Of a DNA stretch of 49,427 nucleotides, positions 4,872-42,167 are shown piece by piece. The DNA lies in IMG/VR virus record IMGVR_UViG_3300009788_000135, positions 1 through 49,427 of that record. One strand, given 5' to 3'. Both the position numbers and the translations under genes were made by a program. Position 1 is the first letter of the stretch, and each line of letters starts with the position of its first letter. The notes below the pieces were generated by a model that was not told the origin of the DNA, did no database searches, and was given only the letters and a program-made list of their open reading frames with translations. The DNA is from a virus.

Positions 4872-7800
4872 TGCGTCGCCCGCCAAATCCCAATAGTCCC
4901 GAAGAGGTGCGGAGAGCGATCCAGTTACTTAATCAGGGTGAGGACGAGGCTGCTAGTGGCCTTGCAGCGTTCATTGTCTTGGTTGCTGAAACGTATGTCC
5001 CTTATGTCAATGCACACTCAAGCGTTGATCTTGACGACCAGAATATCACTTCGACTGGCAATGCATCGTTCGCAAATTGCACACTTACCGGCTACATGGA
5101 TGGGTACGCCGATGTGGCTGCTGACGGCGAGATACTGTATTGGGATACCGGAAACGCAAGGTTCGATGTTGGCGATCATGGAGACATTGCGGGGCTTGGG
5201 GACAATGACCACCCGCAATACTCGCATCTGAAAACCGGGTGGGCCCCTGGAACCGCTGCCGATGAAGCCTATACCCTTGCTATAGACACCCCCTCACGAA
5301 CATTCTCGCTGACACACTCCGGAACCGGTGAGTATTGGATTGCTGGTGTAAGAGAGACATTCGCTGCTCCACTGAGTGTCGTGTTCGATGACACGGAGGG
5401 AATGTGGCATATTTCCATAACGTCCGGCGGCACGATGGAGGCTTCACAGACTGACTGGAATTTTGACGACACAGCAGTATTTGTTTCGGAGTTTTATTGG
5501 GATGCGGTCAATGGTGCGGTCGTTGGGATGTCTTCTGAGCTCCACTCATGGATTCTTTCAGATCCGTTACATGAGTATCTACACGAATCGTTTGGAACGC
5601 GATGGGCCAACGGTCTTGGTGTTGCGATTAACGGGGATGAACTTGATGTCGGTATAGGGAGGATATTCGACGAGGATATCGAGTGTAATATTACCGATGA
5701 TCTCGGCTCTGGTAGATGGGATCAGACGCTTACCCCTTTGACCTGTCCGATATTGTACAGGGATGGTGCTGCCGGTAACTGGCGTGTCGACGCCGCAAGC
5801 TCGGTCCCTGTGATACTTACTGCAAATGTTCCACAAGTAAACTATGCAACCGGTGGGGTGTGGGACCTTGAGGATGTCGGTGTAAATAGGTATTTTGTTT
5901 ACTGGATCATCGCATCGACCAATCAGAATTATCCGGTATACCTCGTCCCTGGGCAGGAAGATGGTGCCACACTAAATGCGACAAGGGACGGGAATAGCAT
6001 CGCCGACATGGAATTTGGCAATTTGCCGGTTGAAGAGTCGAAAGTCATTGCCCGCGTCATTGTGCAGCGGCAGGCCGGCTCGCCATACTACAGCCTCATT
6101 GAGGTGAATGATTACAGGAATGTAGTGGACGAGCCTGGAGTCGGGGCCGTAGTTGGTGACCATGGAAACCTTGTTGGGTTAAACGATGACGATCACGCCC
6201 AGTATCACAATGATGCCAGAGCGGCAACATGGCTTGCGGCAAATCACGAAACAACGTATAACCACGCAAATTATGACACTGCCTACGGATGGGGCGATCA
6301 TGCAGGGTTATATGTCCCAATTGCAAATGATGGCAAGGTGAAGGTTGACGTTGGTGCGACAGGGGATTATCTCGGTGCTGCATTCAATGATGGTGCTTTG
6401 CGTACGAGCACCGGGATCTCGTTTGCTGATGGGGGAAACTTCGTTACCTTAACGACTAACGATGGAGAGATTGTACACAACAGTCTGTCTGGATATGACT
6501 CCAATGACCACGTAGATCACACTACCGTTACGTTCTCAGCAGGGAGTGGACTGACTGGTGGCGGCACGCTTGCAGCAAACAGGACGTTCGACTTAGACAT
6601 CAACGGCTTGGATGCGGATACAATTGTTGCTGCTGATACAATTGCGTTTTATGATGCAACTGGCACTCATAATAATAAAACCGCGTTCTCGGACTTCAAT
6701 GCAGCTCTGGATCATGGTGCGTTCCTGGGTCTGGGCGACGACGATCACACTTCGTATCATACGGACGGTCGTGCTGCCACGTGGCTCGCAGCGAATCACG
6801 AGACGACCTACGATCACTCGCTCATCGGTCCGGCGATACTCGATGACGTCACGTTTGATATCGGAACGTCTGTGGATTACTGGTTCTTGTACAACTCATC
6901 CGGTACTGCGTACGAGTTCTGGTCCACTAACGTGAATGGCGGCGGAGCCGATGGTCTCGTCATGGCTGTCCAGGACGGGACGGATGATGTTGATTTCACT
7001 GGGGACATTGCTGCCAGTGCTGGTACGTTTTCTGGCTTGATTACCGGCACTGCCGGAGCAGACATCACTGCAACTACCAACCAGGAGGCGACACCTGGAG
7101 TCACCTCTACGTCGGTTGCGACGGTGATTCAGGCCGGGACGTCATCCGGCTCAGACGAGACATACGATAATCTTTGGGAGGCAATGAAGTTTACGGCTTC
7201 TGGCAATCACGCTCTCCGTAGCTTTAGGGTGCAACTTAAGAAAACTGGTACAATCACCAACCTGTCGTCATTGATGACAGGTTATCTGTACACCGATGTT
7301 GCCGGTAAGCCTGGCGCACAGATTGGGTCCCTTGGGACTGTTGTTGCGTACGGTTCGATAGGCACAGGTTATACGGTACTGTACTTTGGCGTCTCTTCCG
7401 GCGTGACATTATCATCTGGCTCTGATTATTGGATAGTGTTGAAGCAATCCATTCCGCCGGATGGAGGGACAGTTTTTATACGCCGATCCAGTTCCGGAAC
7501 GGCAACATGGGCCTATTCGGCAGACGGGTCATCTTGGACGACAGAAAATAGCAAAACCGGGCGGTTTGATCTCTTGGGAATGGACGCACAGCCTATTTAT
7601 GGAATCAGCTTGAGCTCTATAGCTGTCTTTGGGGAGAGCACGACTGCTTCTGGTGTTCGCGGAGAGAGCATCAGTGATAACGGAGTGTATGGATTCAGCA
7701 AGAATTCCAGTGGGGTCTATGGAACAAGTACGCGCGGGCATGGTGTCAATGGCGTAAGTACAGATAAATACGGTGTTAGGGGGGAGAGCTCCAATGATGC

Positions 7801-24340: not shown

Positions 24341-24726
24341 TCAGCAGCCTGTCGTGTAATTGTAAGCTCTACTCTTGGGAATTCGGTGTCAATGTTGAAC
24401 GAAGGCTCGCCACGTCTCATATGCTTATTATCGTCATCCGGCACAAGGCCGCTGTCTACAATACCGTCGTAAGCAGATTTTAATGAGCCCGTCGAGTTGT
24501 CAGGGTCCCTTCTACGATCAGTAGTATGGAAGAATGCCGCTGATACAATAACATGGTTCCATGGCATGGACTCAACTTGCTCGGCCTCGACTGCTTCTTT
24601 GGCGAGCCGTCGGTATCTCTTTATTGCCGTCGCTTTCATAAACCGCCCACCAATACTGCCGATTGTGCAGTTTGGTTCAAGCGCCCTTGCAGGCAGTGGC
24701 AGGATGATTGTAACCAGTTCATTCAT
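24337..24726 (-). CDS. rusA: RusA-like Holliday junction resolvase
   Basis: A 129-residue protein with the RusA signature: an acidic metal site in RRRDPDNSTGSLKSAYDG (Asp74, Asp76, Asp87) and GLVPDDDNKHMRR (Asp97-99). RusA cuts four-way junctions during recombination and replication. Length matches the family (about 120). The ATG overlaps the end of the primase gene by eight bases. It belongs with the Sak4-type ATPase, ssDNA-binding protein and nuclease upstream as a recombination set. Confidence 0.85.
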   Translation of the reverse strand: MNELVTIILPLPARALEPNCTIGSIGGRFMKATAIKRYRRLAKEAVEAEQVESMPWNHVIVSAAFFHTTDRRRDPDNSTGSLKSAYDGIVDSGLVPDDDNKHMRRGEPSFNIDTEFPRVELTITRQAAE

Positions 24727-27208
24727 CTGTATCTTTATCAATCTGGGGCGGAGCATGCTCGGCTGTCCAATAGCGGACCGTCTTGTCGCTTTCTGTCGGA
24801 AGGCAGATAATCTCTTGTGATTCGCACAAATCACCCAGGAGATCGTTGCGATGTCGTCCGTTTGCCCACCGTGTACCGCGAGTAATGTCCCGCTTCAGGC
24901 AGCCGGTCTTTCCATACTTGTTGACGAAGTTCAGAAGCATACGCTTCTCGGCCTCTGTCCTGCCTGCAACGATTTCAGGCGCAACATATTTGCCAAAGTC
25001 CGTAATTATTTTCTGAACCAATCGGCTCGCACGATCTGCATTCGCTATGGTAATGACCGGCGAATCATAATTATCAGAGCATGCCAGTATTAAGGCAATG
25101 CGACGTACATTTTCTTCGGCCTTCGCCCATAACTTAGAGAGCTTGGGCTCCTCTTTCGCTTTCAATTCTGCCATGTCGTCAAAGGCAATGAGCCGCTGCT
25201 CTGCATCAGCGTCAGTCGGAACCATAATCTGTTCCGGGGGAGCTTCCTTGAAGTTCCCTGCACTCTCAACTACAAATTGACTGACTGTCTTGCCGTCTGT
25301 CGGCGTGATGTTTTTTCGTTTGGCCCAAGCATGAATCAGCTCGACCACTTTCGGCGGCGGGGGAGTCGAAACGCTGAGGCCACGCCTTTTGCGAGGCTCA
25401 CTCAATTCATAAAAAACCAGACATCTAGACAGCCACCCGTCATCAAGCTCTGACGGAGACAAGCCTTCGGCAAACTTATCTGGTGAGGAAACGCCATAGA
25501 TGCAGCAGCATGGCTGTACAATAGTTCGTTGATTTCCAGCATCGGCATACTCGCGTCCAAGAAAAACATCACTTGCTGCCGAATAGAGCTGCATAAGCAG
25601 ACTGATGATCTGTCCTTGGTGCTGAGAGATTCCGCTCTTTATATGCGTGAGGAGGTGCCCGATCTCATCAAGCAGAAAAAGCGTTGCTGGCTCGCGAGAC
25701 ATGCGGCTCTCGATAGCTGCATCCGAGGCAAGGTTAGACCCACCAAGCAGGTTGACACAATTTGCCGCCATGCACAGTTCCCTGATCTTTTTCATCGCAT
25801 GATTTTTGCCGGCAGACGACTGGGCAACACTCATACAGTACAGGTTGGTCCGCGACCCGTAAACATCTTTTACCTTTCTGCCGAACAACACGCCCAGGAA
25901 TGCCAGCACGCAACCAAGAGTAAGGTATGGCTGTGGCTTGAGGGCAGTCGCATTGATCCAGGAACAAATTTCTCCAAGCAGGCCGGTGGGTTGGGTGAGG
26001 AATTTGAAATCGCTAGCCTGCATCTTATGTATCAACTCGCCTGTTGTGGGCTGGTTATCACGGATGAGTGTATAGTTCACCCAGTTTTCCTGGGTCGGCT
26101 GAGGCTGGTCATTCGTAGTCATCTCGACGAATGGATTCAGCGTCTCGCTCGGCGTGGACGTGTATATGACCTGCGACTCTTTGGCCCCTCGCTTGAACTC
26201 ACCGAGCATCTTGTCGCCAATCTCATGCGACACGGAAAACTCGTCTGGACATGGCTGCGGTGGGTTGTTTCCACGAATAAGTTGCCGAATGTCTTCCCGA
26301 GAAACAGTGATCGGAACCGGTTCATAACCATCCTCATGCAAAAGCCAGCCACGGGGCTTATCGGGCGGGTTCTGAATGGACTGCGTGACCTTGCGGCGGA
26401 AGTCCTTCTCATCCTTTCGTGTGCTGAGGTCCCAGGGTGGGACGCATCGCGGGTTGTACTCGCGAGCAAGGATGTCGTAGGCTCGATCGGCCGAGAGTTC
26501 ATAGCCCCAGGTCATGCAGCCACAGGCCCAAAAGAGCTTGTCGTGTCCAGCCTGCCCCTGGACAGCTGGGTCGCATTGAGCTAGGTAAAGGCTGGCTCGC
26601 TTTGCATTGTCACAGGTCCATCCCGGCAAGCCCGGTTGCGTTGGCACAGGTGGCCGTGCCGGCTCTGGTACGGGCTGCACAGGCGGCCGAAGGAATTCCG
26701 GATATTCGGCCGGCCGCATATTCCATGGCTCTCGGCCCGGCGACCATGCATATCTTGCCCCGTCAGTACGTCTCGACGGAGCAAGCAGCACATAGCCGCC
26801 GTTGCCGCGAATGTCCACGCCAGGAAGGAAATTGACTTTATTTCCAATCGGTTCGTCTGACCGATAAAACTCGTGGCATCCACCTCTTGGTGTGTATTGA
26901 ACTACCGTTGGCTCCAAACATTCTGTTATAGAGCCGTATCCATTTATGCCTTTTTCTTTGTCCATATCTATATCAACCACATAGACGCCGCTAATTTGCC
27001 CGCAGGCTACAGCCACGTTTGCATCTGGCCATTTTGTCCACCACCCGCGAATCCGCTTAGTGTCGATGGTTGCGTCTTTGACACCGTGCGTTGTAAGTGG
27101 AACCTTCTGGCCTGGCTTGATCGGAAAGACATGCCAGCCGGCTGCGGCGTACCGCAGTGCAGCTTCGAGAAGTTGGTTCAATGTTGTACCTCTGCCATGT
27201 GAAACCAT
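24719..27208 (-). CDS. Primase-polymerase (AEP) fused to DUF3987-like helicase ATPase
   Basis: An 829-residue protein. The N-terminal AEP primase-polymerase domain (residues about 15-165) shows motif I DIDMD (79-83), motif II GGCH (His112) and motif III VDIRG (Asp132). A Pro-rich linker and small Cys/Trp segments follow. A P-loop ATPase resembling DUF3987 has Walker A AQSSAGKN (462-469) and Walker B LFLLDEIGH (510-518), with Arg-rich motifs and a wHTH-like end. It would start and extend DNA and unwind the fork. The start is ambiguous: ATG 27208 has poor spacing, while TTG 27181 has AGAGG seven bases ahead and a TTGA overlap, removing nine residues before the domain. It probably anchors replication. 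Confidence 0.85.
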   Translation of the reverse strand: MVSHGRGTTLNQLLEAALRYAAAGWHVFPIKPGQKVPLTTHGVKDATIDTKRIRGWWTKWPDANVAVACGQISGVYVVDIDMDKEKGINGYGSITECLEPTVVQYTPRGGCHEFYRSDEPIGNKVNFLPGVDIRGNGGYVLLAPSRRTDGARYAWSPGREPWNMRPAEYPEFLRPPVQPVPEPARPPVPTQPGLPGWTCDNAKRASLYLAQCDPAVQGQAGHDKLFWACGCMTWGYELSADRAYDILAREYNPRCVPPWDLSTRKDEKDFRRKVTQSIQNPPDKPRGWLLHEDGYEPVPITVSREDIRQLIRGNNPPQPCPDEFSVSHEIGDKMLGEFKRGAKESQVIYTSTPSETLNPFVEMTTNDQPQPTQENWVNYTLIRDNQPTTGELIHKMQASDFKFLTQPTGLLGEICSWINATALKPQPYLTLGCVLAFLGVLFGRKVKDVYGSRTNLYCMSVAQSSAGKNHAMKKIRELCMAANCVNLLGGSNLASDAAIESRMSREPATLFLLDEIGHLLTHIKSGISQHQGQIISLLMQLYSAASDVFLGREYADAGNQRTIVQPCCCIYGVSSPDKFAEGLSPSELDDGWLSRCLVFYELSEPRKRRGLSVSTPPPPKVVELIHAWAKRKNITPTDGKTVSQFVVESAGNFKEAPPEQIMVPTDADAEQRLIAFDDMAELKAKEEPKLSKLWAKAEENVRRIALILACSDNYDSPVITIANADRASRLVQKIITDFGKYVAPEIVAGRTEAEKRMLLNFVNKYGKTGCLKRDITRGTRWANGRHRNDLLGDLCESQEIICLPTESDKTVRYWTAEHAPPQIDKDTDE

Positions 27209-34609: not shown

Positions 34610-35281
34610 TTATTCGGAATTACCCTGGATAATCCGGCGTATGGTGCGTGCCGACCAGGGCTTGCCGCGGAATGGGCCAAGAAATTCATCCAGATAAACT
34701 GCTATCTGAATTGACGTCAAACCACAATTATGGAAGGTTTCCACAAGATCCATTGCCGCCTGTTCCCCGCCGTCCTCCACGAGTACCTTAGTGTTCGGAT
34801 CGACCCGATAGCCAACTGGTGCCCGTCCAAGGTGCTGGCCGGCAGCCTGTTTGCGTTTAAGTCCTGCTGATGTCCTGGCGGAAATGCGGTCTCTCTCGTA
34901 GGCTGCAAAGGCGGCTAGGATATGGGAGAAAAGCTTACCTTCCGGGGTGTCTTCATTCGGGCTGCCGTCTGCGAATTCGATCGTTGCCCCCGCCCTATCG
35001 ACTTGATGGCGAATTGTAAGATTGACGAGCATGTCACGGGCGAGGCGGTCGCACGTGTCGACCACCAGAACCATGCCGGGTTCCAACCGACTGATTGCCA
35101 GCGACAGCTCAGGCCGATCGAGAACCTTACCGGAAATGGCGATGTCCGCAAAGACGCTGTGTAACTCATGCCCGCTTCGATCGCAATAGACCTTACATCG
35201 CTCTTTCTGCTTCTCGTTCGACTGGCACTCGTCCGCGTTGGGGCGAGGAGAAAAGCGACAGTAGATGATTGCTTTCTTCAT
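34610..35281 (-). CDS. Serine recombinase (resolvase/invertase type)
   Basis: The ATG at 35281, four bases after the upstream stop, gives 223 residues (an in-frame GTG at 35305 is an alternative). The resolvase domain is complete: YCRFSPRP with catalytic Ser11, DIAISGKVLDRP, VVDTCDRLARD (the D-R-L-x-R motif) and LAAFAAYERDRISARTSAGL. The C-terminal part (GRAPVGYRVDPNT, WSARTIRRII) looks like a short recombinase/HTH domain. At 223 residues it lacks the large C-terminal domain of phage serine integrases, so resolvase- or invertase-like action is more likely. A 20-bp inverted repeat at 40.6/40.9 kb is a candidate target. Confidence 0.85.
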   Translation of the reverse strand: MKKAIIYCRFSPRPNADECQSNEKQKERCKVYCDRSGHELHSVFADIAISGKVLDRPELSLAISRLEPGMVLVVDTCDRLARDMLVNLTIRHQVDRAGATIEFADGSPNEDTPEGKLFSHILAAFAAYERDRISARTSAGLKRKQAAGQHLGRAPVGYRVDPNTKVLVEDGGEQAAMDLVETFHNCGLTSIQIAVYLDEFLGPFRGKPWSARTIRRIIQGNSE

Positions 35282-40198: not shown

Positions 40199-40231
40199 CT
40201 CTGGCCTATGAGGTCACCTCATAGGCCAGAG
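40199..40231. repeat. Perfect 33-bp palindrome
   Basis: CTCTGGCCTATGAGGT pairs with ACCTCATAGGCCAGAG around one central C. No T-run follows, so it is not a plain terminator. A cruciform or protein site is likely. Confidence 0.85.
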
Positions 40232-40584
40232 GAGCATGCGCCAGAGGGCACTTCTAGCCTTGTATAGGCTATTTTTCGCCATTCTCCCCAGGGGGCCCCA
40301 TCCACTCCTGAATCTCGATCCCACCCCCCGGGTTTATTGGCCCACGGCGTATAGGTAGCCCGCCTCCCCGGCCACATGAGAATCAAAAACAGGGGCCCAC
40401 GATCCATAGCTCAGACTCTGAACAAGAGACGCATGCCAGAGGCCCCAGGAGGCTCATCAGTGCGTTTCTAGCCTCTGAGGCGAATCTGGGCCCAAAGAGA
40501 GTCTCAGGGGCCTGTACGAAGCCCAGGAACCAAATGAGAGAAAAACCCCACCATTGCTAGCATTACCTGAACAGGGTGTTCACA

Positions 40585-40615
40585 CATCCCTTAGTTGGGT
40601 AACGAAAAAAAGACC
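40585..40615 (+). repeat. Inverted repeat, left arm
   Basis: CATCCCTTAGTTGGGTAACG (40585-40604) is perfectly inverted at 40941-40960; the match continues imperfectly through an A-run and GACC. The spacer between the 20-bp arms is 336 bases. Confidence 0.9.
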
Positions 40616-40789
40616 GGGGGGTGTGTGACACATCAAAGCCTTGTGATCAAAAGGGTTAAGTGCCCAAAACGGCCAAGTGTCACACAGGGCGCTTCTAAAG
40701 GAAAATCTGGAGAATCTGGTTGAATATGGGGGGGTAGGTAAAAAAGGGAGAAGCAGGGGGCGTGACGCCGCGACACAAGAGAAAAGGAA

Positions 40790-40855
40790 TAAGGAATACA
40801 GTATACAATATATATTATATATATATACCTATTACCTTACTCCTATTAGACTTAC
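40790..40855. other. AT-rich stretch, possible unwinding element
   Basis: Long A/T run with alternating TA palindromes (AATATATATT, ATATATATAT) and the heptamer CCTATTA twice (40828-40834, 40842-40848). It lies in the centre of the inverted-repeat island, next to a G-rich tract. This is a form typical of a replication origin unwinding site. Confidence 0.5.
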
Positions 40856-40914
40856 GTTCGGGGGCCCCTATGCCCCTCGTGTCAGGCTTTCCCCCCGTAA
40901 GAGAATTGCAAAAA

Positions 40915-40939
40915 CACACGGGACACGTGTGGTCTTTTT
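40915..40939 (+). terminator. Terminator-like hairpin overlapping right arm
   Basis: CACACG pairs with CGTGTG over a GGACA loop and is followed by GTC and five T. The stem is short. It would stop rightward transcription leaving the island; the T-run belongs to the inverted-repeat arm. Confidence 0.4.
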
Positions 40940-40960
40940 GCGTTACCCAACTAAGGGATG
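40931..40960 (-). repeat. Inverted repeat, right arm
   Basis: CGTTACCCAACTAAGGGATG at 40941-40960 is the exact reverse complement of the left arm at 40585-40604; GGTC and a T-run on its inner side match the A-run and GACC of the left arm with one substitution and one length change. Confidence 0.9.
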
Positions 40961-41110
40961 ACTGAGCCACCATCCCCTATCGTAACGACCCCCCACGCTG
41001 GGGACGCCTCCACATTGGACAGCCGCCCCCGGGCTCCGAACATGGGCTGGCTGTAAAAAACGAAATCCGGGGCCTCGCGTGTGAGGGAGGCGTTGTTCAG
41101 TGTTTTTTCA

Positions 41111-41139
41111 TTGACATAAAGCAAGGGTTAGATCATACT
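41111..41139 (+). promoter_or_regulatory. Rightward sigma-70-like promoter
   Basis: TTGACA (41111-41116), 17 bases, then CATACT (41134-41139, four of six consensus bases). It lies about 50 bases before the first rightward gene and would drive the terminase-to-capsid genes. Confidence 0.7.
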
Positions 41140-41189: not shown

Positions 41190-42167
41190 ATGCAATGTCT
41201 TATTAGTGGGTGCAGTCGTGATTCTAAAAGTCGTGGACTATGCGTCAATTGCTACCAAGCAGCAAAGCGTACAGTTAAGAAAGGTACGGCCACATGGGAA
41301 GCCCTGATTGCCGCCGGGCTTGCCAAGCAGGCCCGAGACTACCATCCCAATTTTGATATAGCGCTGAAGAGGGTATTGGGTCGGACTGCCGGCCAGGAAG
41401 TGCTGATGAAGACCGCGTCAGGTGATCCCGACGCTGTCCCTGGCATCCGAACGATCTCGCCGCCCGATCAAGCCGCCTTGCAAGAGCGGGTTGCTCTTGA
41501 GAAGGGCCCCCAGACGATCCTTCCGCCGAGAGAGTCGCGGGCCGCCGAGGATCAGGCCGCCAAGCCGGCCGGACAGCCGGGGCCAGGGATCTTTGAACCC
41601 GATGCTCAGTATGCCAAGCGAACCGGGTACTCGGAAGCCGATGTCAATGCCGGGAAATATGACCATCTTGCGGTAATCCCTCTGGTGCCACAAGGTGAGC
41701 CGCCGGTGCCAGAGAAGCAGGATGGCTATAGCCCGCAGCTCCGTTCGTTCGTACAAAAGCAGGCAGCGTCGAACGATGAATCTCCCGGCCCGCCGGAGGA
41801 CCAGCCGAGTAAGGCCGATTGGATAATGGGAAAGGCGCTTGGCCTCGTTCCGCCTACATACGAGCCGAGGGATTGCGACGTTGCGCCGGAGCAGATGGAG
41901 CCACCTGTCGAGCTGAACACACGTGGACTGCCCGCAGCACCGCCTTTAGACACGCCGATGCCCGGGCCGCTGGCTCAGCGGCCTTGCATAGAAGACAAAC
42001 GTGAGCAGCGAATAGAAGCGAACTTGGACGCAGCTTATCAGATTGTACCGACTAGCCCGTCGACAGTCGAAATGGTGCATGCCCCGCCGTCAGAGCCACC
42101 GGAACCAGACAAGGAAGAACGGCCATCGCTACCATGGGAGCGTTCAGCGAATCTCCCCGCCGAATAG
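41190..42167 (+). CDS. Zinc-finger protein with disordered tail
   Basis: A 325-residue protein. Residues 3-22 (CLISGCSRDSKSRGLCVNCY) form a C...C...C-x2-C zinc knuckle followed by QAAKRTVKKGTATWEALIAAGL. This pairing of RGLCxxCYxAxxxxVKxGxxTWxxLxxxGL is a known small phage family. The remaining 270 residues are Pro/Glu/Lys-rich and disordered. GGGAGG precedes the ATG. First gene of the rightward unit; function unknown. Confidence 0.65.
   Translation: MQCLISGCSRDSKSRGLCVNCYQAAKRTVKKGTATWEALIAAGLAKQARDYHPNFDIALKRVLGRTAGQEVLMKTASGDPDAVPGIRTISPPDQAALQERVALEKGPQTILPPRESRAAEDQAAKPAGQPGPGIFEPDAQYAKRTGYSEADVNAGKYDHLAVIPLVPQGEPPVPEKQDGYSPQLRSFVQKQAASNDESPGPPEDQPSKADWIMGKALGLVPPTYEPRDCDVAPEQMEPPVELNTRGLPAAPPLDTPMPGPLAQRPCIEDKREQRIEANLDAAYQIVPTSPSTVEMVHAPPSEPPEPDKEERPSLPWERSANLPAE

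Follow-up and report, generated by a model that had tools for sequence, protein, structure and literature searches.

RSF1010 carries iterons followed by stem-loops for priming (PMC4234260), and in phage P4 the winged-helix domain of the alpha protein binds the origin repeats (PMC4234260). In the PrimPol replicons pRN1 and Bordetella phage BIP-1, a stem-loop has been proposed as the origin, with no origin iterons (PMC4234260). The recognition sites of the NrS-1 PrimPol are TTTGGTTA and GTG (PMC8718748). Here, we describe a gene-free island in a window that comprises one whole IMG/VR record of 49,427 bases, and judging from its sequence the island is probably a phage replication origin of the iteron type. 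It would provide a predicted origin for a group of uncultivated phages with genomes of about 50 kb, with a conserved core (the ACTTANGT word, an AT stretch and a hairpin) and fast-changing iterons. Start-site choice by PrimPol-helicase phages thereby becomes directly testable, the PrimPol replicons pRN1 and BIP-1 having been described as free of origin iterons.

The candidate initiator encoded by the window is a PrimPol-helicase:

24719..27208, minus strand: PrimPol-helicase (Prim-Pol, DUF3987, predicted C-terminal winged helix)

Our comparison with the described systems reveals that the RSF1010 oriV, with its RepC iterons and its ssiA/ssiB hairpins primed by RepB', is alike in combining initiator-bound iterons, unwinding and small stem-loops exposed to a dedicated primase (PMC4234260), whereas it employs three separate Rep proteins in place of one PrimPol-helicase; the likeness is drawn with no claim of a sequence relation. 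The alpha protein of P4 is likewise a single primase-helicase with a winged-helix domain, but its primase is of the Toprim type, in contrast to the archaeo-eukaryotic PrimPol of the window, and its repeats are different. PrimPol, helicase and winged helix are all shared with pRN1 and BIP-1, in which the stem-loop adjoins the replication gene, whereas the iterons and AT core of the island lie 13.6 kb from the PrimPol gene. With this distance, and with arms 324-336 nt apart, a pRN1-type stem-loop origin was rejected.

The island is enclosed by an inverted repeat, which is real and far above chance. Its perfect 20-bp arms CATCCCTTAGTTGGGTAACG (40585-40604, plus strand; 40941-40960, minus strand) are spaced by 336 nt and form the longest perfect inverted repeat of the window with arms at most 2 kb apart, as compared with a chance expectation of 7e-5 for perfect pairs of at least 20 within 1500 bp. 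These coordinates, first given in an earlier note on the same DNA, were reproduced, and the imperfect extension described there amounts to an ungapped match of 31 nt at 90%, or to 41 nt per arm when gaps are allowed:

40575..40615, plus strand: left arm, gapped alignment with two 1-nt gaps; perfect part 40585-40604
40931..40971, minus strand: right arm, gapped alignment; perfect part 40941-40960

At up to three mismatches, a scan of the window finds the arm sequence only at these two sites and no third, and the arm pattern was found in no viral contig searched outside the window. The only reading frames inside the island are GTG-start frames of 94 and 67 aa that enter the right arm and were given no weight, in agreement with the gene-free interval noted earlier; Rfam and tRNA scans gave no match.

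Between the arms, the sites GTGTGACAC (40623-40631) and GTGTCACAC (40677-40685) are present as the earlier note claimed. They belong to a set of repeats with a GACAC core, of which there are five copies in 376 bp versus 0.9 expected (Poisson p 0.002), and among these repeats TGTGTGACAC constitutes an exact inverted pair. The arms themselves contain no GACAC core. The elements inside the island are as follows:

40622..40634, plus strand: iteron-like repeat TGTGTGACACATC, GACAC core 40627-40631
40674..40686, minus strand: iteron-like repeat TGTGTGACACTTG, inverted copy, core 40677-40681
40772..40776, plus strand: GACAC core, copy 3
40879..40883, minus strand: GACAC core, copy 4
40922..40926, plus strand: GACAC core, copy 5
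40788..40829, no strand: (TA)n core, lowest-GC 40-mer of the whole record, putative DNA-unwinding element
40810..40898, plus strand: noncoding block, 78% over 90 bp in relative L004, where the arms have no counterpart
40850..40857, plus strand: conserved word ACTTACGT adjoining the AT core, candidate priming or recognition site
40859..40879, plus strand: hairpin, with predicted stems at the equivalent place in several relatives

As expected of an iteron-type origin, several short repeats are present (the five GACAC cores here and 8-mers in relatives), and a predicted AT-rich unwinding region lies beside the repeats in 8/8 records.

A DNA-level search of the region among annotated phages gave no match, and the TerS profile matched nothing in bacterial genomes, in which a host or prophage was sought. 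By comparison, a TerL search retrieved 80 metagenomic loci, and the TerS profile added further ones. Mapping of the window proteins onto these relatives reveals the order leftward genes, gene-free region, zinc-knuckle gene, terS, terL and portal. The island occurs in most relatives with TerL above about 50% identity whose contig reaches the region, and most of the later, TerS-retrieved loci carry it likewise. Its layout in relatives is a purine-rich strand, a (TA)n core, a pyrimidine-rich strand and then often a hairpin; phage-specific repeats are part of the islands, many of which also contain the conserved ACTTANGT word and the hairpin. In all eight long records (the window and seven relatives), the 40-mer with the lowest GC content anywhere in the record is that of the core. 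TATATA (z 18) and AAGTGT/ACACTT (z 13) are within the top three over-represented 6-mers of 15 islands, and AAGTGT/ACACTT ranks first once TA words are set aside. Across 17 sequences, 9 of the 21 occurrences of ACTTA[CGT]GT fall within 120 bp of the core versus 0.17 expected, an exploratory figure, as the pattern was picked after the sequences had been viewed. In the folded sequences, the predicted stems come next.

The repeats around the core differ from phage to phage. L004 carries GTGTGTAA five times, L011 GGGGACAC five times, and L018 GATGCGGA seven times in addition to GATGCGGAC, so that five to seven exact 8-mer copies are found in each of the three; L013 and L049 share TTGACAC, and L116, a locus retrieved later, contains repeats of the GGGAGAATG type as judged by eye. 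Repeats of the left and right flanks match each other, inverted or direct, at p <=0.015 in 8/19 islands, these values resting on single-shuffle controls with two tests per island and no correction. Inverted matches pass this threshold in the window, L011, L018, L116 and L046; direct ones do so in L004, L013, L018, L105, L116, L117 and L046, the last of which has direct copies of about 34 bp flanking the core. The test was not significant in L019, L021, L023, L049, L081, L110 and L124, among others. Since flank repeats are inverted or direct across relatives, the inverted arrangement of the window represents one variant of a general theme, in which repeats surround an AT core. Separately, L008 (100-169) and L049 (6267-6335) contain 20-bp arms CTTGCTGACCACAGCCCCCC with a gap of 29-30 nt, about 600 bp left of the AT core.

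The terminase genes offer another reading. As terS and terL lie close by, the island might be a packaging site (pac or cos) for the terminase encoded directly to its right, and an alignment of seven phages reveals a second conserved block at 40291-40380 (GGGGGCCCCAT..TAGCCC) that would suit such a role. This reading is quite unlikely: no fixed terminus is seen at the island, given three circularly closed relatives and variable contig ends, and the repeats change completely while TerS is clearly conserved. The second noncoding block (GGGGGCCCCAT...CACCCCCCGGG...GTAGCCCGCCTCC, window 40291-40380) lies 207-635 bp left of the AT core in the seven phages, and is possibly a packaging site or a second origin element. 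Also left of the island, a perfect 16-bp hairpin CTCTGGCCTATGAGGT with a 1-nt loop is located at 40199-40231.

Promoter-like sites occur at 39975-39948 (leftward) and 41111-41139 (rightward), both outside the arms, which bears out the proposed position of the island between divergent promoters. This position, together with a weak two-sided terminator-like hairpin at 40915-40931, would fit a transcription boundary, in which insulating terminators and operator sites separate the divergent operons and have no role in replication. Such a boundary is unlikely, given that terminator-like sites number 4 in 1.7 kb versus 1.7 expected, near chance, and that it leaves the record-wide AT minimum, the ACTTANGT word and the two-sided repeats unexplained. 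The earlier suggestion of two terminators may hold as a minor extra role, but it does not account for the conserved AT core and repeats.

By comparison, an origin with paired arms, the second option of the earlier note, is supported by the synteny, the AT-rich core, the iterons, the conserved hairpin block, the PrimPol and the GC-skew minimum. The PrimPol-helicase is encoded by the window, all six near-complete relatives and G016 (8/8); in G016 (C1:4055-6328) the PrimPol gene shares the strand of terL, opposite to the arrangement of the window. The last ~65 residues of the PrimPol were modelled as a winged helix (mean pLDDT 88), and a structure search of the PDB with this C-terminus yielded chiefly winged-helix proteins (best E 0.006, probability 1.00), whereas a PDB sequence search with it returned nothing useful. 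The modelled domain is a candidate binder of the repeats; a comparison of recognition-helix changes with iteron changes established no tie between the two. Cumulative GC skew reaches a minimum no more than 1.3 kb from the core in 7/8 records, when the nearer of two minima per record is taken. The skew switch proposed earlier as a sign of an origin is present near the core, but it is confounded with the switch of gene strand at the same place. Third-position skew is 0.031 in co-directional versus -0.032 in head-on genes, which is the right direction but weak.

Based on these features, we propose that the short repeats flanking the core would be bound by a phage-encoded protein; the PrimPol-helicase, acting through the winged helix at its C-terminus, is the most likely candidate. 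The (TA)n core would melt, the helicase domain would enlarge the bubble, and the PrimPol (or a host primase) would prime near the ACTTACGT word and the hairpin, single-stranded beside the core. Forks would depart both ways, along the two divergent gene blocks. In this model the inverted arms would be the outermost phage-specific repeats of the origin, which is the weakest step of the origin reading; alternatively, they could be a by-product of repeat turnover.

The window also encodes a serine recombinase, and the assignment of this gene to the resolvase family was confirmed (PF00239, E 5e-31):

34610..35281, minus strand: serine recombinase (resolvase/invertase catalytic domain), judged to lie outside the function of the island

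The occurrence of inverted arms and a serine recombinase in one genome had suggested an invertible DNA switch, in which the recombinase flips 40605-40940 at the arms. Hin/Gin-type serine invertases are alike in having a small serine recombinase gene and inverted arms, but the arms here lack both a clear dyad and conservation, and the island also occurs without a recombinase. The best dyad within an arm has 7 of 12 half-site matches, which is ordinary in that 1.4% of genome positions equal it. The arms were sought in all relatives searched, including those with recombinases 47-57% identical, and the best scores equalled shuffled controls. Their absence from every relative searched and the conservation of the block 40810-40898 in L004 run opposite to the conserved arms with a variable middle that the earlier note had named as something to look for in relatives. 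In L046, moreover, the copies around the core are direct rather than inverted. A relative of the recombinase is found in 13/28 records, but none was found in four of the six near-complete relatives with island and PrimPol (G003, G005, G009 and G012). G005, G009 and G010 have exact end repeats of 123-144 bp, as in circular assemblies; with G005 and G009 circularly closed, absence of the recombinase there is unlikely to result from missing sequence. Because the promoter-like sites lie outside the arms, a flip of the segment would redirect neither. Four close contig pairs (L008/L049, L013/L014, L021/L022 and L081/L083), two of them from recombinase carriers, retain a single orientation when aligned across the island, which is modest evidence, as each pair may represent one virus from linked samples. 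Taken together, these observations speak against a switch, which appears very unlikely, and they caution that a recombinase and inverted arms in one genome are by themselves not evidence for one. The L003 contig, from a different record, matches 10,224 bp of the window at 99.99%, but it was rejected as a flip test because it stops at 34836, inside the recombinase gene, and does not reach the island. Upstream of the recombinase gene, no conserved site that might be its own target was seen except within the close pair G015/G016.

The only trace of a larger inversion involves the gene to the right of the island:

41190..42167, plus strand: 325-aa protein, zinc-knuckle domain at the N-terminus, gene accompanying the island in relatives

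A search with this protein gave no match. In 17/20 loci, about 260-1330 bp separate the zinc-knuckle gene from the core, and the gene is found on a constant side relative to island polarity. In L029 (around 6759-7272) and L032 (around 6536-6958), whose recombinases are 54-58% identical, island and zinc-knuckle gene are jointly reversed relative to terL, which would favour a switch; however, the reversed segment exceeds the one bounded by the arms. No strong inverted repeats bound it, and we therefore consider it an old rearrangement. It is very unlikely that the origin and the zinc-knuckle gene form a cassette invertible as a unit by the phage (or another) recombinase, with L029 and L032 in the flipped state; if so, its inversion would swap the block membership of the gene and the polarity of the origin. 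Small genes for RGLC..CY zinc-knuckle domains lie beside the island in the window and in relatives, sometimes two in tandem.
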